This document shows, piece after piece, positions 5,341 to 27,350 of a stretch of 64,000 nucleotides of DNA; position 1 is the first letter of the stretch; the number at the start of each line of letters is the position of its first letter. The position numbers and the translations under genes were made by a program. The notes beneath the pieces are model-generated. The model made no database searches, had not been told where the DNA came from, and saw only the letters and a program-made list of their open reading frames with translations. Source of the DNA: Cupriavidus oxalaticus (GTDB taxonomy: Bacteria; Pseudomonadota; Gammaproteobacteria; Burkholderiales; Burkholderiaceae); contig NZ_CP069812.1 in the NCBI RefSeq assembly GCF_016894385.1, positions 1,736,001-1,800,000 on the forward strand, written 5' to 3'.

Positions 5341-5345
5341 TATGT
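5341..5345. repeat. target-site duplication TATGT, left copy
   Basis: TATGT lies immediately outside the transposon end at 5346. The same five bases occur immediately outside the other end at 13576-13580. Tn3-family elements create 5-bp duplications, so this marks a single simple insertion. Confidence 0.9.
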
Positions 5346-5383: not shown

Positions 5384-8345
5384 CCGGTTGCAGCGGTCGT
5401 AGCGGCCTGAACTTGCCCGCGCCGATCTTGGCGCTGCTGCGCCAGAGGTAATCGCCGGTGAGGTTGATGTGCTCCCAACCGAGCGGCGACAGGTACTGCA
5501 ACAGCGCGTCATCAACGGCATGGCCGTTGCCACGCAGCGCGTGCGCAGCCCGTTCCAGATAGACCGTGTTCCACAACACGACGGCAGCCGTTACCAGATT
5601 GAGGCCGCTAGCCCGGTAGCGCTGCTGCTCGAAACTGCGGTCGCGGATTTCACCCAGGCGGTTGAAAAACACTGCCCTGGCCAGCGCATTGCGCGCCTCG
5701 CCCTTGTTCAGGCCGGCATGCACGCGGCGGCGCAGTTCCACGCTTTGCAGCCAGTCCAGGATGAACAGCGTGCGCTCGATGCGGCCCAGCTCGCGGAGCG
5801 CCACGGCCAGGCCGTTCTGGCGTGGGTAGCTGCCGAGCTTTCGGAGCATCAGGGAGGCCGTCACCGTGCCCTGCTTGATCGAGGTGGCCAGCCGCAGGAT
5901 TTCGTCCCAATGGGCGCGGACGTGCTTGATGTTGAGCGTGCCGCCGATCATGGGTTTCAGCGCGTCATAGGCGGCGTCGCCCTTCGGGATGTAGAGCTTG
6001 GTGTCGCCCAGGTCGCGGATGCGCGGCGCGAAGCGGAAGCCCAGGAGGTGCATCAGGGCGAAGACGTGATCGGTGAAGCCCGCCGTGTCGGTGTAATGCT
6101 CCTCGATCCGCAAGTCGGACTCGTGGTACAGCAGGCCGTCGAGCACGTAGGTCGAATCGCGCACGCCGACGTTCACGACCTTGGTGTGAAATGGCGCGTA
6201 CTGGTCAGAAATGTGGGTGTAGAACGTCCGCCCTGGGCTGCTCCCGTATTTCGGGTTGATGTGGCCGGTGCTCTCGGCCTTGCTGCCGGTGCGGAAGTTC
6301 TGGCCGTCCGACGATGAGGTGGTGCCGTCGCCCCAGTGCTCGGCGAAGGGATGGCGGAACTGTGCGTTGACCAGATCGGCCAGCGCCGCCCCGTAGGTTT
6401 CGTCGCGGATGTGCCAGGCTTGCAGCCAAGCCAGCTTGGCGTAGGTCGTGCCGGGGCAAGACTCCGCCATCTTGGTCAGGCCCAGGTTGATCGCGTCGGC
6501 GAGGATCGTGGTCAGCAACAGGTTCTTGTCTTTGGCCGGGTCGCCCGATTTCAGATGCGCGAAATGCCGAGTGAAGCCCGTCCATTCGTCCACCTCCAGC
6601 AGCAGTTCGGTGATCTTGACGTGCGGCAGGATCATTGCCGTCTGGTCGATCAGCGCTTGGGCGGTGTCGGGTACCGCCGCGTCGAGCGGCGTGATCTTCA
6701 AGCCTGACTCGGTGATGATGGCGTCCGGCAGCTCGTTGGCCGTCGCCATACGGTTGACGGTGGCAAGCTGTGTTTCCAGCAGCGTCAGCCGGTCGTTCAG
6801 GTACCGGTTGCAGTCGGTGGCCACGGCCAGCGGCAATTCGCTGGCCTGCTTGAGGCTGGCGAATTTCGCGGGCGGCACCAGGTAGTCCTCGAAGTCCTTG
6901 AACTGGCGCGACCCCTGCACCCAGATGTCGCCGGAACGCAACGCGTTCTTCATCTCCGACAGCGCGCACAGTTCGTAGTAGCGCCGGTCGATGCCGGTGT
7001 CGGTCATGACCAGCTTCTGCCAGCGCGGCTTGATGAACTCGGTCGGCGCGTCGGCGGGCACCTTGCGGGCGTTGTCGCTGTTCATGCCGCGCAGCACCTC
7101 GATGGCGTCGAGCACGTCCTTCGCGGCGGGAGCGGCCCGCAGCTTGAGCACGGCAAGGAATTCCGGCGCGTAGCGGCGCAGCGTGGCGTAGCTTTCGCCG
7201 ATGCGGTGCAGGAAATCGAAGTCCTCGGGCTGCGCAAGCTTCTGCGCTTCGGTGACGCTCTCGGCGAAGGCATCCCAGGACATGACGGCCTCGATGGCGG
7301 CGAACGGATCGCGGCCCGCCTGCTTGGCCTCGATCAGCGCCTGGCCGATGCGGCCGAACAGCCGCACCTTGGCGTTGATCGCCTTGCCGGACGCCTGGAA
7401 TTGCTGCTGATGCTTGTTCTTGGCGGCGTTGAACAGCTTGCCCAGGATGCGGTCGTGCAGGTCGATGATTTCGTCGGTGACGGTGGCCATGCCCTCGATG
7501 GCAAGCGCCACCAGGGTGGCATAGCGTCGCTGCGCCTCGAACTTGGCCAGGTCGGCGGGCGTCATCTGGCCACCCTCACGGGCGATCTTGAGCAGGCGGT
7601 TCTGGTGCACCGACCGCTCGATGCCAGAAGGCAGGTCGAGCGCCTGCCACGCTTTGAGGCGTTCGATGTGTTCCAGCATGTGCCGCGAATTCGGTTTGAC
7701 GGGCGATTGGCGCAGCCAGGCCAGCCAGGTCGTTTTGCCGTTGTCCCGACGCTTGAGCAGATCGTCGAGGCGGCGGCGATGCGCGTCCGACAGCGGTTCG
7801 GCCAAGGCATCGTAGATGCGCCGGTTGGCGCGGGTGATTGCTTCGGCGCTCGCCCGCTCGACGGCGTTGAGGGCAGGCAGAATGACCGACTGCTGCCGCA
7901 GGTGCTCGATCAAGGTGCTGGCCAGCACGATGCCCTTGTCGGTCTGCAAGGCCATCTCGGTCAGCAACTGGACGGCCTGCCGGTAGTGGCCCATGGTAAA
8001 GGGCTGGAAGCCGAACACCGTTTGCAGTTCGACCAGGTGCTCGCGCCGGGTCTGCTCCCGCTGCCCGTATTCGTCCCAGCTTTCGACGCTGACCTTGAGC
8101 TGGTCGGCGACCAGTTTCAACAAGGGCGGAAACGGCGGCTCATCGACGCCCAGGATGACACCAGGAAAGCGCAGGTAACAGAGCTGCACGGCGAAGCCCA
8201 GCCGGTTGGCCGGGCCGCGCCGCTGCCGGATGATGGAGAGGTCGGTTTCGCTGAACGTGTAGTGACGGATCAACTCATCCTTGGTGTCCGGCAACGCCAG
8301 CAGGCTTTCGCGCTCGGCGGCGGACAGGATTGAACGACGTGGCAT
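5379..8345 (-). CDS. tnpA: Tn3-family transposase TnpA (Tn21 subgroup)
   Basis: A 988-residue replicative DDE transposase, the length usual for Tn21/Tn501 TnpA. It binds the 38-bp ends and forms cointegrates. It begins [20 protein letters not shown]. The C-terminal half contains the Tn3 transposase core, with [20 protein letters not shown], then [28 protein letters not shown] and the acidic [10 protein letters not shown] region (catalytic Asp/Asp/Glu). It starts 2 bp after the tnpR stop, so the two are one transcription unit. Transcription runs out of the element towards chrA. Confidence 0.97.
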
Positions 8346-8347
8346 AT

Positions 8348-8908
8348 TTACTGATCCGTTCTCAAGTATTGATACAGGGTTTCGCGACTGATTCCGAATT
8401 CACGAGCCAGCTTGGTCTTTTGCTCGCCAGCCTCGACACGTTGGCGCAGTTCGGCAATACGCTCAGACGACAGGGATTTCTTCCTGCCACGGTAGGCCCC
8501 GCGCTGCTTGGCGAGCGCGATGCCCTCGCGCTGCCGCTCGCGGATCAAGGCGCGTTCGAACTCGGCGAACGCGCCCATTACCGACAGCATCAGGTTCGCC
8601 ATCGGCGAGTCCTCGCCGGTGAAGGTCAAATGCTCCTTAAGGAACTCGATGCGTACGCCGCGCTGGGTGAGGCCCTGCACCAGGCGGCGCAGGTCGTCGA
8701 GGTTGCGCGCCAGACGATCCATGCTGTGCACCACGACCGTGTCGCCTTCGCGCACGAAGGCGAGCAGCCGTTCCAGTTCGGGCCGCCGTGTGTCCTTGCC
8801 CGACGCCTTGTCGGTGAACACTTTATCCACCTGGATCTGTTCGAGCTGCCGTTCTGGGTTCTGGTCGAAGCTGCTGACGCGGACGTAACCGATGCGCTGA
8901 CCGTGCAA
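8348..8908 (-). CDS. tnpR: serine resolvase TnpR
   Basis: A 186-residue resolvase/invertase that resolves transposition cointegrates at res. The N-terminus [20 protein letters not shown] contains the catalytic Ser. The Arg-rich motif [19 protein letters not shown] follows, and a C-terminal Hin-like helix-turn-helix ([20 protein letters not shown]) binds res. The length matches Tn21/Tn501 TnpR. It lies between res and tnpA on the same strand, and in this family TnpR also represses its own promoter at res. Confidence 0.97.
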
Positions 8909-9038
8909 GGTATCCTCCTGAGGGAAATGTGTCAGGAAGAAATCTATGACCCTTGACGGCGTATGTCAATCAATTCGGAAGGCAACTCTATTCTGACGAT
9001 TTAGCGCCGGATGGTCTGACGCCAAGTTAGGGTATGCC
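8909..9038. promoter_or_regulatory. res site and tnpR promoter region
   Basis: This 130-bp gap between tnpR and urf2 is where Tn21-subgroup elements have their three-subsite res. It is noticeably AT-richer than the genes and contains several imperfect dyads, for example around 8945-9000. The boundaries of the three subsites were not assigned. Confidence 0.7.
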
Positions 9039-10028
9039 TCAATCTGACGGTAGCGAGTCGCAGGCGTTCGGATCGGCATCGGTTTCGTTCCCTGTCTTGG
9101 CACGCGCTTCGAAGCGTTGATAACACTCCAACCCGCAGAAGTGCTCGACGTATTCCGCGCCTTCCGGGGTGAAGGCGGCATCGAGCGGGATTTCCTTGCA
9201 GCACACGCAGCAACTGGTGGTGGTCGAGTCACTTGCATTCATGGTGGCACCCCTCCATTGACTGACGAAGACGGCGAATGCCGCCGCCGGCATTGGCTTC
9301 GCGAACAGGAAGCCTTGTCCTGTGTCGCAGTCCGCTTGTCGCAATAGATCAAGACTCGCCGATGTTTCCACGCCTTCAGCCACCACATCCATGCCCAGCC
9401 CGTGCGCAAGCTGAATCACGGTGTGCACGATGGTTTGGTCGCGGCGGTCGTTGGCGAGCCCGGCGACAAACGATTGGTCGATCTTGAGCGTGCTGATTGG
9501 GCAGCACTTCAGATGTTGCAGACAGGAATACCCCGTCCCGAAGTCATCGGCGGCGAAGCGCACACCGATCTGCCGCAAGGCGTCCAGGGCGGGGAAGATC
9601 GCCGGATCACCAAACGCGACCGATTCGGTCAGCTCGATTTCGAGATACTCGGCGGGCAACTCGGCATCAGCCAGCACGCCCTTTACCCACCCGTCGAAGT
9701 CCGGTCCCACTTGGCTCGCCGAAACATTGACGGCCAGCCGGAACGGTCGCCATGCCAGCATTCGCCAGTCACGCATCTGGCGGCAGGCTTCGCCCAGCAC
9801 CCAAGCGCCGATTTCAGGCATCAGGCCGGACGATTCGACCACGGGCAGGAACTGGCCCGGTGGCAATAGTCCAAGCGTCGGATGACGCCAGCGCAACAGG
9901 GCTTCCGCGCCGACAATCCCACCACTGCGCAGATCGACGACGGGCTGGTAGTGCAGTTCAAGCTGCCCGCGCTCGACCGCTTGGGCCAGTTCCGGCGTCG
10001 TCCATCCATCCGGCCGGAAAGCGCTCAT
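9039..10028 (-). CDS. Urf2: EAL-domain protein with C-terminal Cys-rich DUF3330-like tail
   Basis: A 329-residue protein standard in Tn501-type mer transposons. Residues 10-245 form an EAL domain (cyclic-di-GMP phosphodiesterase family): the signature is present as [11 protein letters not shown] instead of the usual ExL, and [30 protein letters not shown] and VVAEGVET can be read. The last 60 residues hold [15 protein letters not shown], then [11 protein letters not shown], a small Cys-rich segment like DUF3330. Its ATG overlaps the merE stop (ATGA). No role in mercury resistance is established. Confidence 0.9.
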
Positions 10029-10261
10029 TCTCTTTCCCTGAATGCCCGCAACGCCCGCGACAGGGACAGAAGGAACAGGCCGGTCAAACCGAGCGCCGCG
10101 ATGACCCAATGCTCGCCGAGGAAAGCACCGGCGGTTGTGCCGGCCAGCACGACAGCGAGGATGGGCAGGTGGCAGGGGCAAGTCAGCACAGCCAGTCCGC
10201 CCCACAGGTAGCCGGTGATCGGTTTGTGCGTCTCGGACGGCAAGCGCTCGGGGTTGTTCAT
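10025..10261 (-). CDS. merE: broad mercury transporter MerE
   Basis: A 78-residue inner-membrane protein. Two hydrophobic segments (about 21-45 and 51-70) flank a loop, and the first holds the vicinal metal-binding motif TCPCHLP. MerE moves inorganic and organic mercury into the cytoplasm for reduction. Its start overlaps the end of merD by 4 bp and its stop overlaps the urf2 start, so all are translationally linked. Confidence 0.93.
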
Positions 10262-10623
10262 GGCAGACTCTCCGCGTGCTGTGCCGGCTCGGTCGGCAGG
10301 GTGGCCAACTGCACTTCCAGATCGGCCAACGCTTCGCGCCGACGCTCGACGAACTGACGCAGCAGGGCAAGCTGCGCGGCCGCTTCGTCGCCGTCCGCCG
10401 CATCCAGCGCCCGGCACAGCCGCGCCAGCGCGTCGAGGCCGATGCCCGCCTCGAAGGCCGCCCGCACGAAGCACAGCCGTTGCAAGGCGGCGTCATCGAA
10501 CAAGCCGTAGCCGCCTGGTGTGCACGCCACCGGGCGCAGCAATCCGCGCAGCAGGTAGTCGCGCACGATATGCACGCTCACCCCGGCATCAAGAGCCAGC
10601 CGGGACACCGTGTAGGCGTTCAT
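10258..10623 (-). CDS. merD: mercury operon co-regulator MerD
   Basis: A 121-residue MerR-like protein. The start [20 protein letters not shown] gives a MerR-type helix-turn-helix; the frame extends 7 codons upstream, but 121 residues is the family length. After [20 protein letters not shown] comes a coiled coil, without the three mercury-binding Cys of MerR. MerD binds the same operator and is thought to switch the operon off when mercury is gone. It lies between merA and merE. Confidence 0.93.
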
Positions 10624-10640
10624 TGAACACCTCCTTTTTC

Positions 10641-12338
<1,698 letters not shown>

Positions 12339-12397
12339 TTATCGTTTGTGGCGCCAGACAATGACGTCCGTTGTGCTGCGGTGCCGTTTTCAGTGAC

Positions 12398-12673
12398 TCA
12401 CTGCTTGACGCTGGACGGATAGCCCGCGTCTGCGGTTGCCTTGGTCAGCTTCTGCACGCTGGTCTTGGCATCGTCGAAGGTGACGACCGCTTGGCGTGTC
12501 TCGAAAGTCACGTCAACTTTGCTGACGCCTTCGACCTTGGAAATCGCCTTCTTGACAGTGATCGGGCAGGCGGAGCAGGTCATGCCCGGTACGGACAGCG
12601 TGACGGTCTGGGTGGCGGCCCAGACGGGGGCAACAACGGCGGCGAGGGCGAGGGAGGCAAACAGTTTCTTCAT
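12398..12673 (-). CDS. merP: periplasmic mercury-binding protein MerP
   Basis: A 91-residue precursor. The signal peptide MKKLFASLALAAVVAPVWA is followed by a 72-residue heavy-metal-associated domain with SVPGMTCSACPITVKKAI, where the two Cys capture Hg(II) in the periplasm and pass it to MerT. It starts 12 bp after merT, in the mer operon. Confidence 0.96.
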   Translation of the reverse strand: MKKLFASLALAAVVAPVWAATQTVTLSVPGMTCSACPITVKKAISKVEGVSKVDVTFETRQAVVTFDDAKTSVQKLTKATADAGYPSSVKQ

Positions 12674-12685
12674 GGTGAACTCCGA

Positions 12686-13036
12686 TCAGTAGAAAAATGG
12701 CATGACGTAGGGAAATCCGAGCGCGACCAGAACCAGCGCGGCCACGATCCAGAAAATGAGCTTGTAAGTAGCTCGCACTTGGGGAATCGCGCAGACCTCA
12801 CCCGGTTTGCAGGCCGCTGCCTGCCGGTAGATGCGCCGCCAGGCGAAGAACAACGCCACCAGCGCCACGCCGATAAAGATGGGGCGATAGGGATCCAACA
12901 CCGCCAAGTTGCCGATCCAAGCGCCGCTGAACCCCAAGGCGATCAGAACCAACGGCCCGAGGCAGCAAGCCGAGGCGAGGATGGCGGCAAGCCCTCCAGT
13001 GAAGAGCGCGCCGCGCCCGGTTTTTGGTTCAGACAT
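12686..13036 (-). CDS. merT: mercuric ion transporter MerT
   Basis: A 116-residue inner-membrane importer. The start [15 protein letters not shown] was preferred to an upstream in-frame start at 13102, because that would overlap the mer promoter. The first helix has the Cys pair in [10 protein letters not shown], the cytoplasmic loop has a second pair in ACKPGEVCA, and a third helix closes the protein. It accepts Hg(II) from MerP and is the first gene of the operon driven by the dyad at 13081-13096. Confidence 0.96.
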
Positions 13037-13071
13037 GCGCTTGTCCTTTCGAATTGAAATTGGATAGCGTA

Positions 13072-13102
13072 ACCTTACTTCCGTACTCATGTACGGAGTC
13101 AA
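13072..13102 (-). promoter_or_regulatory. mer operator-promoter PmerTPAD
   Basis: Read on the minus strand, a -35 TTGACT (complement of 13097-13102) and a -10 TAAGGT (complement of 13072-13077) are 19 bp apart, the over-long spacer typical of MerR-controlled promoters. Between them lies the dyad CCGTAC/GTACGG (13081-13096), the MerR site. The divergent merR promoter overlaps it. Confidence 0.95.
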
Positions 13103-13107
13103 GCGAT

Positions 13108-13542
13108 ATGGAAAACAATTTGGAGAACCTGACCATTGGCGTTTTCGCCAAGGCGGCCGGGGTCAATGTGGAGACCATCCGTTTCTATCAGCGCAAGGGC
13201 TTGTTGCTGGAGCCTGACAAGCCCTATGGCAGCATCCGCCGCTATGGCGAGGCGGATGTAACGCGGGTGCGCTTCGTGAAATCAGCCCAGCGGCTGGGCT
13301 TCAGCCTGGATGAGATCGCCGAGCTGCTGCGGCTGGAGGATGGCACCCATTGCGAGGAAGCCAGCAGTCTGGCCGAGCACAAGCTCAAGGACGTGCGCGA
13401 GAAAATGGCTGACCTGGCGCGCATGGAGGCCGTGCTGTCTGAGTTGGTGTGCGCCTGCCATGCGCGAAGGGGGAACGTTTCCTGCCCGCTGATCGCGTCA
13501 CTACAGGGTGGAGCAAGCTTGGCAGGTTCGGCTATGCCTTAG
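13108..13542 (+). CDS. merR: mercury-responsive regulator MerR
   Basis: A 144-residue activator/repressor. Residues 10-30 form the helix-turn-helix ([20 protein letters not shown]), and the long dimer helix is followed by Hg(II) ligands Cys82 (THCEEAS), Cys117 (ACHAR) and Cys126 (VSCPL). It untwists PmerT when Hg binds. The stop codon is inside the right inverted repeat of the transposon. Length and residues fit Tn501-type MerR. Confidence 0.97.
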
Positions 13543-13575
13543 CGTGCTTTATTTTCCGTTTTCTGAGACGACCCC
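13538..13575 (-). repeat. 38-bp terminal inverted repeat (merR end)
   Basis: The complement of the left end, finishing ...GAGACGACCCC at 13575. It overlaps the last codons of merR. The T-for-C difference at the ninth base from the outside is the only mismatch seen against 5346-5383. Confidence 0.95.
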
Positions 13576-13580
13576 TATGT
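13576..13580. repeat. target-site duplication TATGT, right copy
   Basis: Identical to 5341-5345. Joining 5345 to 13581 restores the pre-insertion sequence between chrA and the TSUP gene. Confidence 0.9.
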
Positions 13581-13600
13581 GGCAGAGTTGAGCCATAATA

Positions 13601-13634
13601 ATCGAAATTCGATAGCGAAACACGATAACGAAAC
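13601..13634. promoter_or_regulatory. dyad and direct repeats before the TSUP gene; candidate PadR operator
   Basis: A perfect palindrome ATCGAAATTCGAT (13601-13613) is followed by near-identical direct repeats CGATAGCGAAAC (13610-13621) and CGATAACGAAAC (13623-13634). It lies just upstream of the TSUP start and was originally shared with the divergent chrA-padR. PadR is the obvious candidate binder, but this is inference. Confidence 0.5.
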
Positions 13635-13640
13635 AAGCCC

Positions 13641-14423
13641 ATGGAACTCGTTCTGATCGGAGTTGTGGCCCTATTAACATCTGGGCTGACGTTGTTCTCC
13701 GGCTTCGGCTTGGGAACGGTCCTGATGCCGGTGTTCGCCCTGTTTTTCCCGTTGTCGCTTGCCATCGCAGCAACAGCCGTGGTGCATTTTGCCGCCAACC
13801 TCTTTAAGTTGGGGCTGATGGCCCGGCAGGCAGATTGGCCAGTTGTGGTGAAATTCAGCGTGCCCGCCGCCGTGACGGCAATCCTTGGCGCACGCTCCCT
13901 CGCGTTCTTCGATCAGTTGCCGCCCCTCTGGCACTACACCATCGCAGGCTCAGATTTTGAAATCACCGCCGTAAAAGCGGTCATCGGTAGTTTGATCGTG
14001 CTGTTTGCACTGCTTGAACTATCCCCTCGGTTTCAAGCGCTCGCATTTCCAGCGCGCTGGCTTCCTGTTGGCGGGGCGCTCTCGGGCTTCTTCGGGGGGT
14101 TATCGGGCAACCAAGGTGCGTTGCGTTCGGCGTTCCTGTTGAAGGCGGGCCTGTCCAAAGATGCGTTCGTGGCGACAGGTGTTGTTTCGGCGGTGATCGT
14201 CGATGCTGTGCGCCTCGGGGTGTACGGCACCGCCATGCTTGCAGGCCAATTCTCACAGGCTCAGACACTCGCATTACCCGTTATCGTGGGAACGATCTGC
14301 GCGTTCATCGGTGCTCTTGTAGGCAAGCGCATCTTGCAGAAGGTCACGCTGCGCACGGTACAGCTCATTGTTGCAATAGCTATGTTAAGCATAGGTACCG
14401 GATTGGCTCTTGGCTTGCTCTAG
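13641..14423 (+). CDS. TSUP (TauE/SafE) family permease
   Basis: A 260-residue inner-membrane protein with about eight helices, typical of the sulfite/sulfur-compound exporter family. Family hallmarks are the glycine-rich start SGLTLFSGFGLGTVLMPVFA and the internal repeat VGGALSGFFGGLSGNQGALR. It was divergent from chrA-padR before the transposon landed, so it is probably part of the same chromate/oxyanion module, perhaps moving sulfate, sulfite or a related oxyanion. The substrate cannot be read from sequence. Confidence 0.85.
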   Translation: MELVLIGVVALLTSGLTLFSGFGLGTVLMPVFALFFPLSLAIAATAVVHFAANLFKLGLMARQADWPVVVKFSVPAAVTAILGARSLAFFDQLPPLWHYTIAGSDFEITAVKAVIGSLIVLFALLELSPRFQALAFPARWLPVGGALSGFFGGLSGNQGALRSAFLLKAGLSKDAFVATGVVSAVIVDAVRLGVYGTAMLAGQFSQAQTLALPVIVGTICAFIGALVGKRILQKVTLRTVQLIVAIAMLSIGTGLALGLL

Positions 14424-14468
14424 GTAGCATTCTCAGCGCAGGCCGAAATGTGTCGCAAAATGCTTTAA

Positions 14469-14484
14469 TGTAGAGATCTCTACA
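14469..14484. promoter_or_regulatory. perfect 16-bp palindrome, candidate ChrB operator
   Basis: TGTAGAGATCTCTACA is a perfect dyad 39 bp upstream of chrB, in an AT-richer stretch. It is the only strong dyad between the TSUP gene and chrB. ChrB proteins act as chromate-responsive repressors of chr operons, so this is the natural candidate site. Confidence 0.6.
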
Positions 14485-14522
14485 GCATTGAAATGCGAGT
14501 TATGGGCTCCTAACATGCGCTC

Positions 14523-15485
14523 ATGACTGCTTTCTCTGATTCTTGGGCTTTGCTGATCGTCACCCTACCAACCTCCGGCGCCACCGCCCGGATGCGGATA
14601 TGGCGTGCAATCAAGACAATCGGTTGCGCCGCACTACGTGATGGCGCCTACCTTTTGCCCGCACGCGATGAGCAAATTGCCCAGTTGCGCGAGTTGGCCG
14701 GCGAGGCCCGGCAAGAAGGCGGCCAAGCCTGGCTTTTGAATGTCCGCGCCGCCGATCCGGAGGAAGAGACTGCTTTCCGGGCATTGTTCGATCGCAGCGC
14801 TGACTATGCGGAACTTCAGGTTGCCCTGTCAGATGCGCGCAAGTCGCTGTCCGATCAGAGCAGTGCCGAACTCAATCGCCTGCTGCGTCGCCACGGGCGT
14901 GCCTACGAAGCAATCCGCATGATCGACTTCTTTCCCAATGCGGCGTCGAGCCGCGCCGAAGCCCAATGGCATGACTTCAGCCGCGCCATCGAGACCATCC
15001 AGTCTCCCGGCGAACCACAGGCGCTCACGCGAGCAATCCCTCGTCGGGATCCTGCCCAGTATCAAGGGCGGCTTTGGGCCACGCGCCCCCACCTGTGGGT
15101 GGACCGCGTGGCAAGCGCCTGGCTGATCCAGCGCTTCATCGATCCTCACGCCCGGTTTCTGTGGTTGGAAAGCCCGGCTGATTGCCCTGAGGATGCGCTG
15201 GGCTTCGATTTCGACGGCGCGACCTTTACGCATGTGGGCGAGCGTGTCTCGTTTGAAGTGTTGCTGTCGAGCTTTGGCCTCGAGTCGGACCGCGGGCTCA
15301 GCCGGCTCGGCATCATGGTCCATGCGCTCGATATTGGCGGCATTTCGGTACCGGAAGCCAGCGGCTTTGAAGCCATGCTGGCCGGCGCACGAGCGCGCCT
15401 GGCGGACGACAACGCCGTGCTGGCGGAGATCGGCACGGTACTGGATTCGCTATACGCACACTTCTCGACCAACAAGAAGCCCTGA
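14523..15485 (+). CDS. chrB: chromate-sensing regulator ChrB
   Basis: A 320-residue full-length ChrB. The N-terminal half (WALLIVTLPTSGATARMRIW, then LRDGAYLLPARDEQ) is the ChrB-N domain. The C-terminal domain starts around residue 185 (WATRPHLWVDRVASAWLIQR) and contains FDFDGATFTHVGERVSFEVL. In this family it represses the operon until chromate is present. It opens a chrB-chrA-SOD-ChrB-C series with short gaps (26 bp to chrA). Confidence 0.93.
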   Translation: MTAFSDSWALLIVTLPTSGATARMRIWRAIKTIGCAALRDGAYLLPARDEQIAQLRELAGEARQEGGQAWLLNVRAADPEEETAFRALFDRSADYAELQVALSDARKSLSDQSSAELNRLLRRHGRAYEAIRMIDFFPNAASSRAEAQWHDFSRAIETIQSPGEPQALTRAIPRRDPAQYQGRLWATRPHLWVDRVASAWLIQRFIDPHARFLWLESPADCPEDALGFDFDGATFTHVGERVSFEVLLSSFGLESDRGLSRLGIMVHALDIGGISVPEASGFEAMLAGARARLADDNAVLAEIGTVLDSLYAHFSTNKKP

Positions 15486-15511
15486 CTTCAACTCTCTTCC
15501 AGGATTTAGTT

Positions 15512-16714
15512 ATGAGTCGCATGCAACAAGCCGGCGTGGCACCGCCGGACGTCACGGAACGGCCCGCCTATACCCTCTGGCAACTCGTGCTCTATTTCCT
15601 TCGCCTGGGCACGTTCGGCTTTGGCGGGCCGGTCGCGCTGGCCGGCTATATGCACCGCGACCTCGTGGAGCGGCGGGGCTGGATCAGCGATGGCGACTAC
15701 AAGGAAGGCATAGCGCTGGCACAACTGGCGCCCGGGCCGATGGCAGCGCAACTGGCGATCTACCTCGGCTACGTCCACTATCGAGTCCTCGGCGCAACGC
15801 TGATCGGCCTGGCCTTCGTGCTGCCGTCGTTCCTGATGGTGCTGGCGCTAGGCTGGGCCTATGTCCGGTTTGGCGGGCTGACCTGGATGCAATCGGTGTT
15901 CTATGGTGTGGGCGCCGCCGTCATCGGTATCATCGCGATCAGCGCCTACAAGCTGACCACAAAGAGCGTGGGCAAGGACAAACTGCTGTGGGCAATCTAC
16001 TTGGCGCTGGCTGCGGTGACCATCGTCACAGAGTCCGAGATCGCCTGGCTGTTCCTGGCAGCCGGCGTGCTTGCCTGGTTCTGGCGCGCCCCACCCAAAT
16101 GGCTGCGCCAGAGTGGCGCCAATGCGCTCGCGGCCACACAGGTACCGGCCGCGAGCGGCCTGCTGAGCACGCTGGACTGGCCGCTACTGACCCAGATCGG
16201 CGTGTTCTTTGCCAAGGCAGGCGCCTTTGTCTTCGGCTCGGGACTCGCCATCGTGCCATTCCTCTACGGCGGTGTCGTGACGGAATACCACTGGCTCAAC
16301 GACAAGCAATTCGTCGATGCGGTAGCCGTGGCCATGATCACGCCCGGCCCGGTGGTCATCACGGTCGGCTTCATCGGCTACCTGGTAGCCGGGCTGCCCG
16401 GCGCCTGCGTGGCAGCACTGGCAACCTTCTTGCCCTGCTACTTGTTCACAGTGTTGCCGGCCCCTTATTTCAAGAAGTACGGAAAACTGCCAGGCATCCT
16501 GGCCTTTGTCGATGGCGTCACCGCGGCTGCGATTGGCGCCATCACCGGTGCAGTGTTCGTGCTGGCCAAGCGCTCGATTGTCGACGTCCCGACCGTCCTG
16601 CTGGCGCTGGGCACGGTCGCGTTGCTGCTGAAATTCAAGAAGCTGCCTGAGCCAGTCATCATCACCGGCGCCGCGCTGATCGGCCTCGCCGTTTATCCGG
16701 TGCTGCACCACTGA
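15512..16714 (+). CDS. chrA: chromate efflux transporter ChrA (chrBAC-type)
   Basis: A 400-residue CHR-family antiporter that removes chromate from the cytoplasm. The N-terminal half has LGTFGFGGPVALAGYMHRDL and IALAQLAPGPMAAQLAIYLG; the C-terminal half has AFVFGSGLAIVPFLYGGVV and AVAMITPGPVVITVGFIGYL. About ten helices. It follows chrB and precedes the superoxide dismutase gene. Its sequence motifs differ enough from the ChrA at 4122-5327 that the two are not a recent duplication. Confidence 0.95.
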   Translation: MSRMQQAGVAPPDVTERPAYTLWQLVLYFLRLGTFGFGGPVALAGYMHRDLVERRGWISDGDYKEGIALAQLAPGPMAAQLAIYLGYVHYRVLGATLIGLAFVLPSFLMVLALGWAYVRFGGLTWMQSVFYGVGAAVIGIIAISAYKLTTKSVGKDKLLWAIYLALAAVTIVTESEIAWLFLAAGVLAWFWRAPPKWLRQSGANALAATQVPAASGLLSTLDWPLLTQIGVFFAKAGAFVFGSGLAIVPFLYGGVVTEYHWLNDKQFVDAVAVAMITPGPVVITVGFIGYLVAGLPGACVAALATFLPCYLFTVLPAPYFKKYGKLPGILAFVDGVTAAAIGAITGAVFVLAKRSIVDVPTVLLALGTVALLLKFKKLPEPVIITGAALIGLAVYPVLHH

Positions 16715-16736
16715 ATCAAACGAACCAGGGGACACC

Positions 16737-17327
16737 ATGAGCTACGAAATGAAACCGCTGGCATGCGATCCAGCCCGGCTTTCGGGCCTGTCGGAGAAAC
16801 TGATTGTCAGCCATTACGAAAACAACTATGGCGGCGCGGTGAAGCGGCTGAATGCGATTACCGCAGAGCTGTCAGCACTCGACGTGGCAGCCGCACCCGT
16901 CTTTATGCTGAACGGCCTGAAGCGCGAAGAACTGATTGCAACCAACTCCATGATCCTGCATGAGGTGTACTTCGACAGCCTCGGCGACGGCGGCAGTCCA
17001 GGCGGTGAACTGGAAGCCGCGCTCTTGCGCGATTTCGGCTCTGTCGCGCGCTGGCAAGCGGAGTTCGCCGCCATGGGCAAGGCACTTGGCGGCGGCTCGG
17101 GCTGGGTACTGCTGACTTACTCTCCGCGCGACGCTCGGCTGGTCAACCAGTGGGCTTCCGACCACGCCCATACCCTGGCTGGCGCGACGCCGATCCTGGC
17201 GCTGGATATGTACGAGCACTCCTACCACATGGACTATGGTGCGAAGGCCGCGGCCTATGTCGATGCGTTCATGCAGAACATCAATTGGGCAAGAGTCGCC
17301 AATCGCTTCGGGGGCGTGAGTAAATAG
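16737..17327 (+). CDS. chrC: Fe/Mn superoxide dismutase of the chr operon (ChrC)
   Basis: A 196-residue iron-type superoxide dismutase, which removes superoxide formed during Cr(VI) reduction. It has HYENNYGGAVKRLNAI near the N-terminus and the metal-ligand segment LDMYEHSYHMDYGAKAAAYV near the C-terminus, giving the Asp-x-x-x-His ligands. Inner ligand residues are less standard than in housekeeping SodB, as usual for ChrC. It starts 22 bp after chrA behind AGGGGACACC. Confidence 0.9.
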   Translation: MSYEMKPLACDPARLSGLSEKLIVSHYENNYGGAVKRLNAITAELSALDVAAAPVFMLNGLKREELIATNSMILHEVYFDSLGDGGSPGGELEAALLRDFGSVARWQAEFAAMGKALGGGSGWVLLTYSPRDARLVNQWASDHAHTLAGATPILALDMYEHSYHMDYGAKAAAYVDAFMQNINWARVANRFGGVSK

Positions 17328-17390
17328 TCAGTGAGAATCCCGGCCGCCTAGACCCAGCCACCACCTCGACAAACCAGAGCGGAGACCGCC

Positions 17391-17849
17391 ATGAAATGGA
17401 TTACCCGGGAACGCCCCAAGATCGACCGCATCGCTTGCCCGTGGCTCATCGCCCGGTTCATCGACGAGGCGCCGGAATTTCTCTATGTGCCCGCCGGCGA
17501 CGTGTTGCGCGTGGCAGGCGAGACCGGCGCCACTCCCTATGACATCCCCGGCGTGGAGCTGTCGCATGTCGGTGAGCTGTGCAGTTTTGACGCCTTTCTG
17601 GACAAGTACGGCCTGCCCGATCCCGCCTTGCGGCAACTGGCGGAGATCGTGCGCGGCGCCGATACGTCGAAGCTCGACCTGACGCCGCAGTCCAGCGGAT
17701 TCTATGCGATTTCCCTCGGCCTCTCGCAGGTGTATGCCGACGATCACGAGATGCTCGGCCACGGCATGGTGATGTACGACGCGCTCTATGCGTGGTGCCA
17801 GCACTGCCAGGCGGAAACCCACCGCTGGCCGCCGAAGATACCTGCTTGA
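17391..17849 (+). CDS. stand-alone ChrB C-terminal-domain protein
   Basis: A 152-residue protein matching only the C-terminal domain of ChrB: RPKIDRIACPWLIARFIDEA aligns with RPHLWVDRVASAWLIQRFID of the full ChrB, and VELSHVGELCSFDAFLDKYG with the FTHVGERVSFEVLLSSFG segment. No DNA-binding N-terminus is present, so an enzymatic or chromate/heme-binding role is more likely than repression. It is preceded by GGAGA and follows chrC by 63 bp as the last intact gene of the chr cluster. Confidence 0.85.
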   Translation: MKWITRERPKIDRIACPWLIARFIDEAPEFLYVPAGDVLRVAGETGATPYDIPGVELSHVGELCSFDAFLDKYGLPDPALRQLAEIVRGADTSKLDLTPQSSGFYAISLGLSQVYADDHEMLGHGMVMYDALYAWCQHCQAETHRWPPKIPA

Positions 17850-18335
17850 ACGCTGCACCCACTGGACGGCCATACCGGCCATGAGCGAGACGATCCTGTC
17901 ATACGCCGCTCCATGCATCTCATGTCGCCACCACGCGTTGAACCTATGCGCATAGACGAAGCCTTCGTGTTCGCGGAGACGAAATGCGGTCAGCGGCAAT
18001 TCGTTTGCCACTTTGCAGAAGTGTATGACGCCCTCATGCGCTTCGCCGTAACGCCTGCTACGAATGCTGAACTCGTGCAGATGCTCGTCGGCCCAGCCCA
18101 TGATGATATGGATGACCGAGGCCTAGGGTCAAAGAAGGCAGACCAATATCTGAGTCTGCCAATTTCATCCGCGGGGCCGGATGGCGGCCGAATGGGAAAG
18201 TGGCCTCCAAAGACTGCTTTCGGCAAAGGCGAGAGTCTCCAAGGGGGATCGATGGGAGACGATCAGTCATCCAGTGCCCGTGGCGCTTGACGATAAGCTG
18301 ACACAGATTCGAAATTTCCCTTATAGATCAACGCC
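17850..18335. other. debris between chr cluster and bufferin locus
   Basis: Apart from the minus-strand remnant at 17912-18110, no gene is recognisable. The open frames are short and their products match nothing I know. This looks like a junction where older genes have been cut by insertions or deletions. Confidence 0.5.
17912..18110 (-). pseudogene. remnant of a pRiA4b ORF-3-like protein
   Basis: The minus-strand frame reads IIMGWADEHLHEFSIRSRRY, then an inner part ending FVYAHRFNAWWRHEM. This is the middle of the plasmid pRiA4b ORF-3 family (usually MGW.DSHLHQF...RYG... followed by a YDF.D.WRHE-like motif). The N-terminal third and C-terminal half are absent: upstream the frame does not resemble the family, and downstream it runs into unrelated sequence. 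It is a decayed fragment, with moderate certainty. Confidence 0.5.
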
Positions 18336-18575
18336 TTAGGCTAGATTTGGCGAAAATTTCACGAATTCCGGCCGACCCTCGTTGCGGTTCCGGACATGGC
18401 GCGCCGCCAGCGCCCGCAGATATGGGGTGATGTCCTCCAGCAGCCGGCGATACGCCTCGCGGTCGCCGCCCTGGGCGCGCACCATCGCCGCCGACCAGTC
18501 CGCCGTGCCGTCAGCCCGGCTGACTGAAAGCTCGGACGGTAGCCCGGCGGCAGCCGGATCCTGGGTATGGTTCAC
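18336..18575 (-). pseudogene. truncated ECF sigma factor (RpoQ-like)
   Basis: A probable GTG start at 18575 (behind AAGGTGAAACG) gives a 79-residue product. Residues 27-65 (DWSAAMVRAQGGDREAYRRL, then EDITPYLRALAARHVRNRNE) are region 2 of an ECF sigma factor. The reading then changes to GRPEFVKFSPNLA and stops, so regions 2.3 to 4 are missing. It is divergent from the bufferin operon, where an ECF sigma gene normally controls that operon. As it stands it cannot be a functional sigma factor. Confidence 0.8.
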
Positions 18576-18749
18576 ACGGTTTCGTTTCACCTTGCGACGG
18601 TGCGCTTGGGAAGATGCCTGAATTCTGCTGCATGCGGAATCGTTTGTCGCTGCAAAAAAATCTTCCATAAGACGTAACCTTTGGTCGTTCCGGACCGAAC
18701 TTGCTGAAACGGTGCCGAATCGGCGCCGCAACCCTCAGGAGACAGAAAG

Positions 18750-19058
18750 ATGAACAGACGCGTACTGGCCGCCTCCACCTTGTCATCCGCCCTCGGGCTG
18801 GCCCTGGCTATGGCCGCTGCGCCCGGACTGGCGCAGCCCAAGGAGGTGCCACAGGTCGTCAAGGACAACATGGCCAGGATGGAGAAGGGCAAGCTGGAGA
18901 AGTGTTATGGCATCAATGCCGTGGCCAAGAACGACTGCGCGGAAGGCGCCCATTCTTGCGCGGGACAAGCGACGCAGGCACGCGATGCGAAGTCGTTTGT
19001 GCTGTTGCCGGCCGGTGACTGCAGCAAGATCCAGGGCGGCAAGCTGAAGCCCGCCTGA
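18750..19058 (+). CDS. bufferin precursor peptide (DUF2282; BufA/GigP)
   Basis: A 102-residue exported small protein. The signal peptide is residues 1-28 (cleavage near GLA-QP). The mature part has four Cys: 52 (EKCYG), 63 (NDCAE), 70 (HSCAG) and 91 (GDCSK), the DUF2282 pattern. In studied bufferins the DUF692 enzyme converts Cys into thiooxazole groups that bind copper in the periplasm. It is preceded by AGGAGA and opens the operon. A GTAACC box at 18674-18679 resembles an ECF -35 element. It corresponds to gigP in C. metallidurans by order. Confidence 0.92.
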   Translation: MNRRVLAASTLSSALGLALAMAAAPGLAQPKEVPQVVKDNMARMEKGKLEKCYGINAVAKNDCAEGAHSCAGQATQARDAKSFVLLPAGDCSKIQGGKLKPA

Positions 19059-19070
19059 CCGGAGCCAGCG

Positions 19071-19961
19071 ATGCCTGCCGCGTCTGTTGCACCGCAACGT
19101 GGGTCCGGCCTGATCCCGGCGCGAGCCGGGATCGGGTTGCGCTTCCGGCATCATCAGGCTGTGGCCGAGGCGCGCCCGGCGGTCGCCTGGTTTGAGGTGC
19201 ACACCGAGAATTACATGGGTGGCGGCAGCGCGCCGGCGTATCTGGACGCAATCCGGCGCGACTACCCGCTCGCCCTGCACGGGGTCGGCCTGTCGCTGGG
19301 TAGTGCCGAAGGGCTGGACAGCGCCCACCTGGCGCGCGTGCGCGAGGTGGTCGGGCGGGTGGAGCCTGGGCTGGTTTCGGAGCACCTGTCCTGGAGCATC
19401 GCGGACGGCAAATATCTTGCCGACTTGCTGCCGCTGCCAATGACCGAGGAAGTGCTGGTCATCGTTTGCAGCCATGTCGACCACGTCCAGAGCGTTCTGA
19501 GGCGGCGCATCCTGGTCGAGAACCCTTCGACTTACCTGCGCTTCTGCCACTCGACCATCCCGGAGTGGGAATTTCTCGCCGAGGTCGCTCGGCGCACCGG
19601 TTGCGGCATCCTCTGCGACGTCAACAACATCTATGTCAGCGCCTGCAATCACGGTTGGGAGGCCAGGATGTATCTGGACGCGCTGCCGCCGGCGGCGATA
19701 GGCGAGATCCACCTGGCCGGCAATAGCGTGCGGCAACTCGGGCAGGGGCGAACGCTGCGCATCGATGATCACGGCTCGCGCGTCGCGCCCGAGGTATGGG
19801 CCTTGTACGAGGAAGCGCTCCAGCGTTTCGGTCCGGTTCCCACGCTCATTGAATGGGACACGGCGGTGCCGGCGCTCGACGTCCTGCTGGAAGAGGCGGC
19901 CATTGCCGGGGCCGTGCTGGAGAGGCAAGACAATGCATGCCCATCCCCCTACGCTGCTTGA
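19071..19961 (+). CDS. DUF692 multinuclear iron oxygenase (BufB/GigA)
   Basis: A 296-residue TIM-barrel protein of the MbnB/TglH/BufB family, iron enzymes that modify Cys in ribosomal peptides. Candidate metal ligands sit in typical places: FEVHTENYM, LHGVGLSLG, SEHLSWS, LVENPSTYL, CDVNNIYVSACNHG, EIHLAGN, DDHGSRV and IEWDTAVP. Between the precursor and the DUF2063 gene it is expected to install thiooxazoles on the precursor. It overlaps the next gene by 29 bp, indicating coupling. Confidence 0.92.
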   Translation: MPAASVAPQRGSGLIPARAGIGLRFRHHQAVAEARPAVAWFEVHTENYMGGGSAPAYLDAIRRDYPLALHGVGLSLGSAEGLDSAHLARVREVVGRVEPGLVSEHLSWSIADGKYLADLLPLPMTEEVLVIVCSHVDHVQSVLRRRILVENPSTYLRFCHSTIPEWEFLAEVARRTGCGILCDVNNIYVSACNHGWEARMYLDALPPAAIGEIHLAGNSVRQLGQGRTLRIDDHGSRVAPEVWALYEEALQRFGPVPTLIEWDTAVPALDVLLEEAAIAGAVLERQDNACPSPYAA

Positions 19962-20748
19962 ACTGCAGCGCGCGATCGGCCGGGGCCTGCTGCATGGCGC
20001 CGACGACGACCTTGCCGCGCTCGTGGTGGCGGACGGGTTGGCGCCGGAGGCGCGGCTCGCTGTCTACCGGAACACCGCCACCGGGACGCTGGTGACAGCG
20101 CTACGGCTAACATATCCGGCCGTCCACGCCCTGGTTGGCGCCGAGTTCTTCGAAGGCGCGGCCCGGCTGTTCATCGAAGACTCGCCGCCGCAGAGCGCAT
20201 GGCTGGATGCCTATGGCGAGACGTTTCCCGAGTTCCTGGCGCGGCTGCCGCAGGCCGCCTCGCTGGCCTATTTGCCGGACGTCGCCCGGCTCGAGTGGGC
20301 CGTGGGTAACGTGCTGCATGGTCCGGACGCGGCGCCGCTCGCCCTGGACCGGCTGGCGCGACTGGAGGCGGCTGAACCGGGCGAGGTGTGTTTCAGGCCG
20401 CACCCGGCGGTGCGGCTGCTGCAATCGCGCTTCCCGGTGGATGCGATCTGGCGCGCGGTCTTGAACCATGACGACGATGCCATGGCGGCTATCGACCTGA
20501 ATGCCGGCCCGGTCTGGCTGTGGGTGCGGCGCAGCGCTTCCGGCGTCGCAATCGACCGGTCCACCGAGAGCCAATGGCGCTTCACCGCGGCCCTCTTCGA
20601 CGGGCGCGCATTGCACACGGCACTGGACGAGGCACCATCTGCCCACGCCCACACCTGGCTCGCCACCCTGCTGGCAGGGGGATGCTTTGCCGAGGTCCGG
20701 CTGGCCGACCTGGCAGCCGATCCAACCATTCGGAGTGCCCACTCATGA
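19933..20748 (+). CDS. DUF2063 partner protein (BufC/GigB)
   Basis: A 271-residue protein that begins inside the end of the DUF692 gene. ATG 19933 gives MHAHPPTLLELQRAIGRGLL. The DUF2063 domain occupies residues 8-105 (LAVYRNTATGTLVTALRLTY, then FIEDSPPQSAWLDAYGETFP). Such proteins hold the leader or core peptide for the DUF692 enzyme. The C-terminal half is a separate domain of the family. Its stop overlaps the next start (ATGA). Confidence 0.9.
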   Translation: MHAHPPTLLELQRAIGRGLLHGADDDLAALVVADGLAPEARLAVYRNTATGTLVTALRLTYPAVHALVGAEFFEGAARLFIEDSPPQSAWLDAYGETFPEFLARLPQAASLAYLPDVARLEWAVGNVLHGPDAAPLALDRLARLEAAEPGEVCFRPHPAVRLLQSRFPVDAIWRAVLNHDDDAMAAIDLNAGPVWLWVRRSASGVAIDRSTESQWRFTAALFDGRALHTALDEAPSAHAHTWLATLLAGGCFAEVRLADLAADPTIRSAHS

Positions 20749-21251
20749 CGCACGTACCTGAATCGATCCGCGCAAAGCCCACCATGACCGCCCGCGTGCT
20801 GCGTGCCATCGGGTGGCTGGAAAAGGTCCCTCACACCGTGCTGGCGCTGCCGTTGCGGCTGGCGGTGGCCACCGTGTTCTGGAACTCGGCAATGGCCAAG
20901 CTGGCCAACTGGAATAGCGCCCTGGAACTGTTCCGCGAGGACTACCAGGTGCCACTGGTGCCCCCGGAGCCGGCGGCCTACCTGGCGGTGTCGATCGAGC
21001 TGGCTGCGCCGGTCCTGCTGATGCTGGGGCTGGCGACCCGCCTCGTGGCGCTGGTCCTGCTCGGCATGACGGCGGTGATCGAGATCTTCGTCTATCCGCT
21101 CGCCTGGCCCACGCATATCCAGTGGGCGGCAATGCTGCTGGTGCTGCTGTGCCGGGGTGCGGGCAACTGGTCCCTGGACCATCTGGTGTACGAGCGGCTC
21201 GGGCGTGCACACCGCGGCGGGCCGCCACACGCGGCGGCAGGCGAACGATAG
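20745..21251 (+). CDS. DoxX-family membrane protein (BufD/GigT)
   Basis: A 168-residue four-helix inner-membrane protein of the DoxX family (LRLAVATVFWNSAMAKLANW, YLAVSIELAAPVLLMLGL, then two more helices). It is the last gene of the bufferin operon, ATGA-coupled to the DUF2063 gene. In bufferin/gig operons this DoxX protein is constant but its function is unproven; electron supply or membrane tethering of the maturation enzymes has been considered. Confidence 0.88.
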   Translation: MTHVPESIRAKPTMTARVLRAIGWLEKVPHTVLALPLRLAVATVFWNSAMAKLANWNSALELFREDYQVPLVPPEPAAYLAVSIELAAPVLLMLGLATRLVALVLLGMTAVIEIFVYPLAWPTHIQWAAMLLVLLCRGAGNWSLDHLVYERLGRAHRGGPPHAAAGER

Positions 21252-25652: not shown

Positions 25653-27350
25653 ATGAAAATGCTGCCAGCCAACCCCCAGACCCATCCCGCGCCGCCTGAC
25701 TTCCCCGATGCGGCGTCGCTGGCCGCGCTGCGCGCCTGGTACGAGGGCGTCTCGGCCCGCGACGCGGTGGTGCGCTATTTGGCTGAGCGCAGGGCCAGCG
25801 GCCAGTCCGCGCGCGGCATCCTCGGCCGCATCCAGCAGCAGTTGGCCGAATTCGCGCGTCGCCGGCAGCGCCAGGACCTGGCCGCCTTGTTTGACCACAG
25901 TGCGGTCGAGCGGACCGGGCGGGCGAAGGCCATCCACCAGACGATCGACGTGCTGCGCCGCCTACCGCCGCCGGAACCGCAGGTCAGTGATGACATCGGT
26001 CAATGGCTGCCGGCCCGTGCCGTGGCCGCGCTGCGCGCGCACGGCATCGAGACGCTGGCGGACCTGACGGTGCGGGTGCCGCGCCGACGCCGCTGGTGGG
26101 CGGCCGTGCCCGGCCTGGGCCCAGCGAGCGCGCGGCGCATCGAAGCCTTCTTTGCCGAACACCCGCAACTCACCGAGCGCGCCCGTGCGCTGATCGCCGT
26201 GACGGACCGCGGGGAAATCGTGCCCTGGGAGCAACTGCGCCTGCCCCACGAAGTCGACGGCTCGTCCGGGATCTTTCGTGCCCCGCGGCAAACCTGCACC
26301 CTCAATGCGGACAACGACTACGATGCGGTCCAGGCATGGCTCGCGCTGCACGAGTCGCCAGCCACCCAGCGGGCGTATCGCAAGGAAGCCGAGCGGCTGA
26401 TCCTGTGGGCGATCGTCGAGCGCGAGCGGCCGCTGTCGTCGCTCACCACCGAGGACGCGATTGCCTACCGCAGTTTCCTGCGCCGGCCGACCCCACACAA
26501 GCGCTGGGTGGGACCGCCGCGGCCACGCACCTCGCCCGAATGGCGCCCGTTTGCGCAGGGCCTGTCACCGCGTTCAACGGCCTATGCCTTGGCGGTGCTC
26601 GGAGCCATGTACCGCTGGCTGATCCAACAACGCTATGTGCTGGCCAATCCGTTCGCCGGCATCAAGGTGCGCGGCAGCGGGCGGACTGCGCCGTTGGATA
26701 CGTCGCACGCGTTCACCGAGGGCGAATGGATGCTGGTGCGTACGCTCGCCAACGGACTGGAGTGGTCCTACGGCTGGGATGCCGTGGCGGCGCAGCGGCT
26801 GCGCTTCGTGCTGGATTTTGGCTACGCCACAGGTCTTCGCGGCAGCGAGCTCGTTGGCGCCACGCTTGGCGGCATCGAGATCGATCCCCATAGCGACCAC
26901 TGGCTCAACCTGGTCGGCAAGGGCGCCAAGGCGGGCAAGGTGGCGCTGCCACCGTTGGCACGCATAGCGCTCGACCGCTATCTGGTGGAGCGCGGCCTGC
27001 CGGTCACGCCGGCGCGCTGGGACCCGCATACCCCCTTGATCGGCAGCCTCGGCCAGGAGCCTGCCAACGGCATCACCGGCACGCGCCTATGGGGCGTGTT
27101 GCGGCGCTTCTTCGCGCAAGCGGCGGACCTGATCCAGGCCGACCACCCGGTTGCCGCCGAGAAGCTGCGACAGGCCAGCCCACACTGGATGCGGCACACC
27201 CACGCGACCCATGCGCTGGCGCGCGGCGCGGAATTGACGACAGTCCGGGACAATCTGCGGCACGCGTCGATCTCGACCACCTCGATTTACTTGCACGGCG
27301 ACGAGGTGAAACGGGCACGCCAACTCGGGGCGGCGTTTTCCGCTCCATAG
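25653..27350 (+). CDS. tyrosine recombinase with N-terminal DUF3701-type domain
   Basis: A 565-residue recombinase. Residues 1-200 form an extra N-terminal domain of the phage-integrase DUF3701 kind, including helix-hairpin-helix-like VAALRAHGIETLADLTVRVP and AVPGLGPASARRIEAFFAEH. A SAM-like domain follows (SPATQRAYRKEAERLILWAI). The catalytic domain has Arg in ATGLRGSELVG, Lys in LVGKGAKAGK, HWMRHTHATHAL and NLRHASISTTSIYLH with the nucleophile Tyr. It is a relative of the 401-residue recombinase at 671-1876. No attachment duplications were identified. Confidence 0.88.
   Translation: MKMLPANPQTHPAPPDFPDAASLAALRAWYEGVSARDAVVRYLAERRASGQSARGILGRIQQQLAEFARRRQRQDLAALFDHSAVERTGRAKAIHQTIDVLRRLPPPEPQVSDDIGQWLPARAVAALRAHGIETLADLTVRVPRRRRWWAAVPGLGPASARRIEAFFAEHPQLTERARALIAVTDRGEIVPWEQLRLPHEVDGSSGIFRAPRQTCTLNADNDYDAVQAWLALHESPATQRAYRKEAERLILWAIVERERPLSSLTTEDAIAYRSFLRRPTPHKRWVGPPRPRTSPEWRPFAQGLSPRSTAYALAVLGAMYRWLIQQRYVLANPFAGIKVRGSGRTAPLDTSHAFTEGEWMLVRTLANGLEWSYGWDAVAAQRLRFVLDFGYATGLRGSELVGATLGGIEIDPHSDHWLNLVGKGAKAGKVALPPLARIALDRYLVERGLPVTPARWDPHTPLIGSLGQEPANGITGTRLWGVLRRFFAQAADLIQADHPVAAEKLRQASPHWMRHTHATHALARGAELTTVRDNLRHASISTTSIYLHGDEVKRARQLGAAFSAP

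Follow-up and report, generated by a model that had tools for sequence, protein, structure and literature searches.

A Tn3-family transposon splits the sigma-F-type gene beside a bufferin operon in Cupriavidus oxalaticus

Introduction

In a 64,000-nucleotide stretch of the Cupriavidus oxalaticus genome (RefSeq assembly GCF_016894385.1, contig NZ_CP069812.1, here C2, positions 1,736,001 to 1,800,000; hereafter the window) an operon for a Buf1 (DUF2282) bufferin, bufABCD, lies beside a divergent gene for an extracytoplasmic function (ECF) sigma factor of the sigma-F/RpoQ type, and this sigma gene is broken. What broke the gene, and what can still express the operon next to it, are the questions that this locus raises. 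We found that a Tn3-family transposon was inserted into the sigma gene after codon 70, and the operon is probably now activated in trans by the intact sigma factor of a second locus on the same chromosome.

Insertion of a transposon into the sigma gene

The 5' half of the sigma gene was found on the minus strand at 18381-18590, with its start most likely the GTG at 18590. Its 70 native codons aligned at 81% identity with residues 1-70 of P0003, the closest intact protein to this half and a sigma factor of 210 residues from a compost metagenome, and the minus strand from 18581 to 18378 also matched residues 16-82 of the genome's own intact second sigma factor. At 18381 the frame exits native sequence into GAGGGTCGGCCGGAATTCGTGAAATTTTCGCCAAA (minus-strand reading), adds 14 transposon-derived codons after codon 70 and stops, ending at 18336. 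A Pfam search of the 5' fragment gave no Sigma70_r2 match. The original prediction had recognized a broken divergent ECF sigma gene beside the operon, and this minus-strand fragment is real, but the cut had been placed after region 2 and the tail had been described as unrelated residues; the cut instead falls early in region 2, and the tail is the inverted repeat of the transposon. A frameshift in the 5' half was considered and rejected, as the in-frame GTG start VKRNRVNHTQDP aligned with the P0003 start MKRRPVSDTQDP over 70/70 positions at 81%. Compared with four copies (the genome's own second locus, L139, L140 and L141), the window has the ATG of MKQN, which reads MQQN there, in the wrong frame.

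The gene is also not simply truncated, as had been thought, since its remainder survives 23.4 kb upstream, beyond the window and on the far side of the transposon. There the 3' half (140 native codons, 89% identical to residues 71-210 of P0003) and an NrsF-type anti-sigma gene (rsqA/nrsF) both lie on the minus strand just outside the left end of the element, so that together the two halves fit the whole of P0003. The transposon is 23,406 bp long, with its transposase gene near the left end; its right-hand 18.4 kb fills positions 1-18380 of the window and its left end lies at C2:1730975, 5,026 bases ahead of the window. The right terminal inverted repeat (18346-18380, minus strand) is a perfect copy of the left repeat, and a genome search allowing up to 3 mismatches detected exactly two copies of this 35-bp repeat, in inverted orientation, at C2:1730975-1731009 and C2:1754346-1754380. 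Directly beyond the right repeat lies the 5-bp target-site duplication GTTGC (18381-18385), which is also present just outside the left repeat. A 5-bp target duplication is usual for the Tn3 family. Because two identical terminal repeats, the 5-bp duplication and both halves of the gene were recovered, the break is an insertion and not a sequencing error. A simple deletion was also tried as the cause of the truncation and was ruled out by the repeats, the target duplication and the recovered 3' half.

Plasmid p1 of Cupriavidus sp. KK10 shows the empty site, as the sequence matching the left flank reaches L148:14405 and that matching the right flank starts at 14403. In all 7 of the 7 loci examined (KK10, L139, L140, L141, L142, L012 and the genome's own second locus, L005) the aligned flanks either meet directly or are separated by a few bases. 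Clustering at 90% identity places the protein of the C-terminal half, together with the start that the repeat supplies, at the head of a group of 3 sequences, which occur on 5 contigs. The longest of these contigs measures 3,888,701 bases and is thus not that of the window, whose length is 3,885,446 bases, and this cluster makes it likely that the same insertion occurs in another assembly. A DNA search of 60 genomes of the genus, our own included, detected no near-identical buf locus in the other genomes; their full or nearly full matches were 72-78% identical and one 344-base partial match reached 82%. No report of the insertion was found among the matches listed in the open-licence literature on bufferins and their sigma regulators, judged by title. 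As an insertion the event is ordinary, each part of it being of a known kind, and its interest lies in the consequence for regulation.

Regions 2 and 4 are both complete and in a single frame at the second locus but not at the window sigma gene. Since the 5' half has lost region 4 entirely and region 2 for the most part, and the 3' half lacks a start, the sigma factor in cis is very probably inactive.

The bufferin operon

All four genes of bufABCD (18750-21251, plus strand) are open, complete and coupled, and each product scored above its Pfam cut-off. The Buf1 (DUF2282) bufferin precursor gene bufA (18750-19058; E 2.8e-20) is followed after 12 nt by bufB, encoding the MNIO (DUF692) bufferin maturase (19071-19961; PF05114, E 1.4e-102), which overlaps by 29 nt with bufC, encoding the DUF2063 partner protein (19933-20748; E 6.2e-23), and bufC in turn overlaps by 4 nt with bufD, encoding a DoxX-family membrane protein (20745-21251; E 7.8e-17). 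The N terminus of BufA resembles a signal peptide by eye, and its cysteines at 52, 63, 70 and 91 are the four conserved cysteines of the Buf1 precursor. BufB passed the NCBIfam MNIO_BufB model NF050167 (374 bits, cut-off 310) and its residues 20-279 aligned with the solved DUF692 protein 3bww (E 6.5e-35). The only NCBIfam match of BufA was to the BufA2 model and fell below cut-off (25 of 60 bits), as did the matches of BufC and BufD to the HvfC and HvfX models. Judged by its predicted content of precursor, MNIO, DUF2063 and DoxX genes this is a Buf1 bufferin operon, and the locus as a whole combines such an operon with a regulator of the sigma-F/NrsF type that a Tn3-family element has broken. 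The complete operon that had been claimed, including its gene set and coordinates, was thus borne out. The four precursor cysteines said to be kept were seen in the BufA translation, and the maturation genes are intact as predicted, with their promoter untouched.

A second complete locus on the same chromosome

The original prediction had proposed a search for an intact RpoQ-like sigma factor and anti-sigma gene elsewhere in the genome, and both were found. The genome consists of two contigs, and the second locus (L005, C2:3294554-3298493) lies on the same contig as the window and carries NrsF, an intact sigma gene and its own bufA, bufB, bufC and bufD. In global alignments the BufA, BufB, BufC and BufD proteins of the second locus were 83, 77, 62 and 64% identical to those of the window, the values for BufC and BufD depending on the start codons chosen. 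Genome-wide there are two DUF2282 genes above the family cut-off, two NrsF genes and, at E <= 1e-30, two matches of the RpoQ type, one of full length and one being the C-terminal half. In the genus survey an RpoQ-type sigma factor at E <= 1e-30 was detected in 6 of the 60 genomes and a DUF2282 match in 23. An intact sigma gene elsewhere that binds the GTAACC-type promoter had been named as something that might refute the earlier interpretation; the first part of this is present in L005, and on the side of binding the promoter sequence is kept. By eye, region 4.2 is nearly identical between the genome's two sigma factors.

The two loci do not stem from a recent duplication, which was rejected from the 77% identity of BufB and from the BufB tree. 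The tree was built from 64 of 82 rows (at least 68% identity, at least 240 residues) plus the C. metallidurans CH34 outgroup. The second locus grouped with C. necator N-1, C. alkaliphilus, UYMMa02A and genome G025 (support 0.997). The window copy did not join this group; by distance it was closest to KK10, and the intervening branches had weak support (0.299 and 0.775).

The promoter motif ahead of bufA

A motif search located the sigma-F-type promoter GTAACC-N16-CGAA, known from Caulobacter, at 18674-18699 on the plus strand. It starts 76 bases before bufA. The motif also stands ahead of bufA at the second locus (L005:3921), and the first 14 bases are identical between the two. We surveyed 85 loci in which bufA and bufB lie side by side, measuring sigma identity against the sigma factor of the second locus. 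The motif was present ahead of bufA in 59 of the 60 loci with a divergent neighbouring sigma gene of 45% identity or more (the miss being L072) and in 7 of the remaining 25. Sigma matches that were weaker or lay in a different position (L024, L050, L062 and L085) were scored as no sigma in these counts. Among the 85 are the window, L005 and three records under two ids, so that there are fewer independent loci, and all were found by likeness to the BufB of the window, which favours close kin.

The motif was also seen at other places. At L097:4061-4822 (C2:1729060-1729821), just beyond the split-off anti-sigma gene and convergent with it, the motif stands ahead of genes for a small, exported-looking FTDG-repeat protein and for CopK (PF11525, E 1.1e-27); the FTDG-repeat protein had no Pfam or NCBIfam match. 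The corresponding position in KK10 also carries the motif, there ahead of a gene in which parts of the FTDG-repeat protein and CopK genes are joined. Because the motif precedes these genes here and the matching gene in KK10, the ancestral locus was perhaps a small copper regulon. A match at C2:2747794 was set aside as a chance match, as by eye it sits in the 3' end of a dxs-like gene. On the chromid of CH34 (L147:3644-3729) two divergent motifs point towards gigP (minus strand, 3669-3644, ATG 3526) and towards the sigma gene (3704-3729, ATG 3763), yet the portions of the CH34 study consulted report no RpoQ-dependent gig promoter (PMC10304878). Locus L143 (G025:C1) is a case of independent loss in which the sigma gene is missing, the anti-sigma gene is matched over residues 177-210 only and bufABCD and the promoter are kept.

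How the operon may be expressed

Under the favoured reading the ancestral Cupriavidus locus would have carried copK-like genes, the anti-sigma gene rsqA/nrsF, the sigma gene rpoQ/sigF and, divergent from these, bufABCD. The 23.4-kb mercury/chromate transposon hit the sigma gene after codon 70, leaving the 5' half by bufA and the 3' half by rsqA, with bufABCD and its sigma-F-type promoter untouched. The intact RpoQ-type sigma factor of the second locus, restrained by its own anti-sigma factor, would then act in trans on the GTAACC-N16-CGAA of the window, and the bufferin would be made, matured at its cysteines by BufB/BufC and exported, and would bind copper as expected for the Buf1 family. We estimate the probability of this reading as a whole, insertion followed by trans-activation by the sigma factor of the second locus, at about two in three; the insertion by itself is all but certain. 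In Caulobacter, sigma-F is under negative control by NrsF and uses this motif to drive two DUF2282/DUF692/DUF2063 operons, CC3254-3257 beside sigF and CC2907-2905 elsewhere, according to the sections of the source used here (PMC3511200). Trans-activation appears the most likely step to expression because Caulobacter sigma-F drives a remote operon via the same motif and the window operon resembles the remote kind.

Several observations weigh against this reading. G025 keeps the promoter in a genome without an RpoQ-type sigma factor (best match 30% identity, E 9.1e-11), and a promoter can therefore outlive its sigma factor. For the 6 other loci with the motif and without a divergent sigma gene of at least 45% identity, the closest sigma match anywhere in the genome had 34-48% identity, and in L024, L050 and L062 this was a weaker sigma gene a few kb off in the same locus; as the matches are weak and three of them local, these six say little in favour of action at a distance. 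The lack of a recent duplication between the two loci (BufB 77%) means that cross-recognition is not guaranteed. Genome-wide the motif had 9 matches versus 25 for the reversed control, that is, no enrichment, and because the count lies below the control the argument from the motif is one of position and not of number. Deletion of rpoQ in CH34 was described, in the part of the study used here, to have raised gig expression in metal-treated cells (PMC10304878).

That the operon is silent or nearly so, a decaying relic with the second locus doing all the work, is unlikely. The broken sigma gene in cis, the second full set, a decayed bufA fragment elsewhere in the genome and the example of the sigma-less operon in G025 all speak for such decay, but in the window all four genes are open and the four cysteines and the promoter have been kept.

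Quite unlikely is a second and bolder possibility, in which chr transcription from the transposon crosses the right inverted repeat into bufABCD and makes the bufferin chromate-induced. Five plus-strand chr-cargo genes end at 17849, 900 bp short of bufA, a pattern scan of 17800-18780 for terminator-like sites gave none on the plus strand (shuffling predicts 0.7 for the two strands together), and the 116-nt stretch past the last chr gene folded no better than shuffles (z 1.25). However, 900 bp is a long way to read through, the sigma-F-type promoter is intact, and pattern scans overlook many terminators, so that a terminator-free scan is weak evidence.

A double rewiring, with chromate read-through into bufABCD combined with titration of the second locus's sigma factor by the orphan RsqA, is very unlikely. 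The orphan rsqA now lies downstream of the transposase gene and in the same direction, and no terminator-like site was found by scanning L097:4800-7000. If true, transposon activity and chromate would set the bufferin level of the cell.

That the split sigma factor still functions, as a C-terminal fragment or as two pieces, is highly improbable. The C-terminal half does form an open 153-aa frame in which Pfam r2 positions 21-70 and region 4 are retained, and the rsqA gene behind it is intact, but the beginning of region 2 is missing from this half and translation would have to start at a TTG within the inverted repeat, and the N-terminal half has no region 2 match. The NrsF gene adjoining the 3' half (PF06532, E 1e-26) now lies 23.4 kb further from bufA than before, and against the NCBIfam AntiSigF_NrsF model it scored far below the cut-off (24 of 300 bits). 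An assembly or sequencing artefact, the latter having been named in the original prediction as a possible refutation, has a negligible chance; nothing was found in its favour, and it is excluded by the exact repeats, the exact duplication and the complementary halves, and the C-half cluster of at least 90% identity reaches a contig other than that of the window.

Comparison with known systems

Buf1 (DUF2282) bufferin clusters have, in the passages of the source drawn on, a 4-Cys precursor, an MNIO, a DUF2063 and a DoxX protein together with sigma and NrsF genes (PMC12452194). The window locus shares all of these, including the four precursor cysteines, but its sigma gene is split by a transposon and its NrsF gene lies 23.4 kb away. 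The Caulobacter sigma-F/NrsF regulon has the same promoter motif and gene content, and there one sigma factor serves two operons, one of them remote; unlike Caulobacter, with its single intact sigF, one of two sigma loci is broken here. To C. metallidurans gigPABT-rpoQ-rsqA the locus is similar in gene order, in the divergent sigma/anti-sigma genes and in the GTAACC-N16-CGAA ahead of gigP. The CH34 sigma gene is intact, however, and identities to the CH34 proteins were low (BufA 37%, BufB 48%, BufC 32%, BufD 48%, sigma factor 35%). The earlier label "gigPABT-type" therefore holds for gene order and promoter motif and does not for sequence kinship, as the CH34 operon proteins are 32-48% identical. 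The divergent sigma factor had also been taken as the dedicated activator. Even for CH34 the excerpted text gives no evidence for RpoQ-dependent gig initiation, though its authors assume it, and in Cupriavidus the adjoining sigma factor is on that account a putative activator of the bufferin operon (PMC10304878). Caulobacter sigma-F is the better precedent than CH34 RpoQ/gig.

This strain is a natural cis-sigma knockout, in which one operon has lost its sigma factor in cis and kept its promoter and the sister operon keeps both. Comparing the transcripts of the two operons in one cell would tell if the sigma factor acts in trans. All parts are of known kinds and the combination is useful as a natural knockout. 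Mercury/chromate transposons can, as seen here, uncouple copper-response circuits.

Genes of the transposon and neighbouring elements

The Tn3 transposase gene near the left end (L097:6987-9968) was identified by PF01526 (E 1.3e-148) and NF033527 (710 bits, cut-off 500). A TnpT-like open frame, named by position (compare the "DNA-binding protein" in L145), occupies 1-537 on the minus strand and continues left of the window, and is divergent from the gene for a TnpS-like tyrosine recombinase (671-1876, plus strand; Phage_integrase). The cargo begins with a first copy of the ChrA chromate transporter gene (4122-5327, minus strand; domain search). It is followed by a second Tn3-family transposase gene with a serine resolvase gene (5379-8908, minus strand; domain search) and by mer genes for a DUF3330/EAL protein, MerA (named from its HMA and Pyr_redox domains), MerT and MerR (9039-13542), and this whole stretch (5379-13542) is nested in the larger element. 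The chr genes (13641-17849, plus strand) encode TauE, ChrB, ChrA, an Fe-Mn superoxide dismutase and a ChrB_C protein, and all are directed at bufA.

A tyrosine recombinase gene divergent from tnpT is the TnpS/TnpT transposon layout as given in the portions of (PMC7157771) consulted. With its Tn3 transposase, its tyrosine recombinase gene divergent from the TnpT-like frame and its 5-bp duplication, the element resembles the Tn4651-type members of the Tn3 family, a putative assignment made by layout; unlike those elements it carries mer and chr cargo with a nested Tn3 transposase. A C. taiwanensis plasmid shares the transposase region (93.8% over 80% of a 4,641-base query) with equal annotated gene order. 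A 12.8-kb stretch of this plasmid, which contains the transposase and tyrosine recombinase genes, is bounded at each end by the repeat's first 32 bases with 1 mismatch.

Further traces of mobile elements lie nearby. At L137:6597-7235 (C2:1712596-1713234) the first 20 bases of the repeat are followed by a 3' piece of merA (by eye) and, directly after it, by a decayed bufA fragment with stops; this remnant looks like the relic of an earlier element beside a third bufferin gene. About 128 bp at C2:1803996-1804124 (L095:3996-4124), 78% like the right end of the element and located beside an integrase fragment (by eye), are probably the end of a related element. A further integrase gene (DUF3701 and Phage_integrase) was found at 25653-27350, 4.4 kb past bufD, suggesting that this region often takes up foreign DNA.

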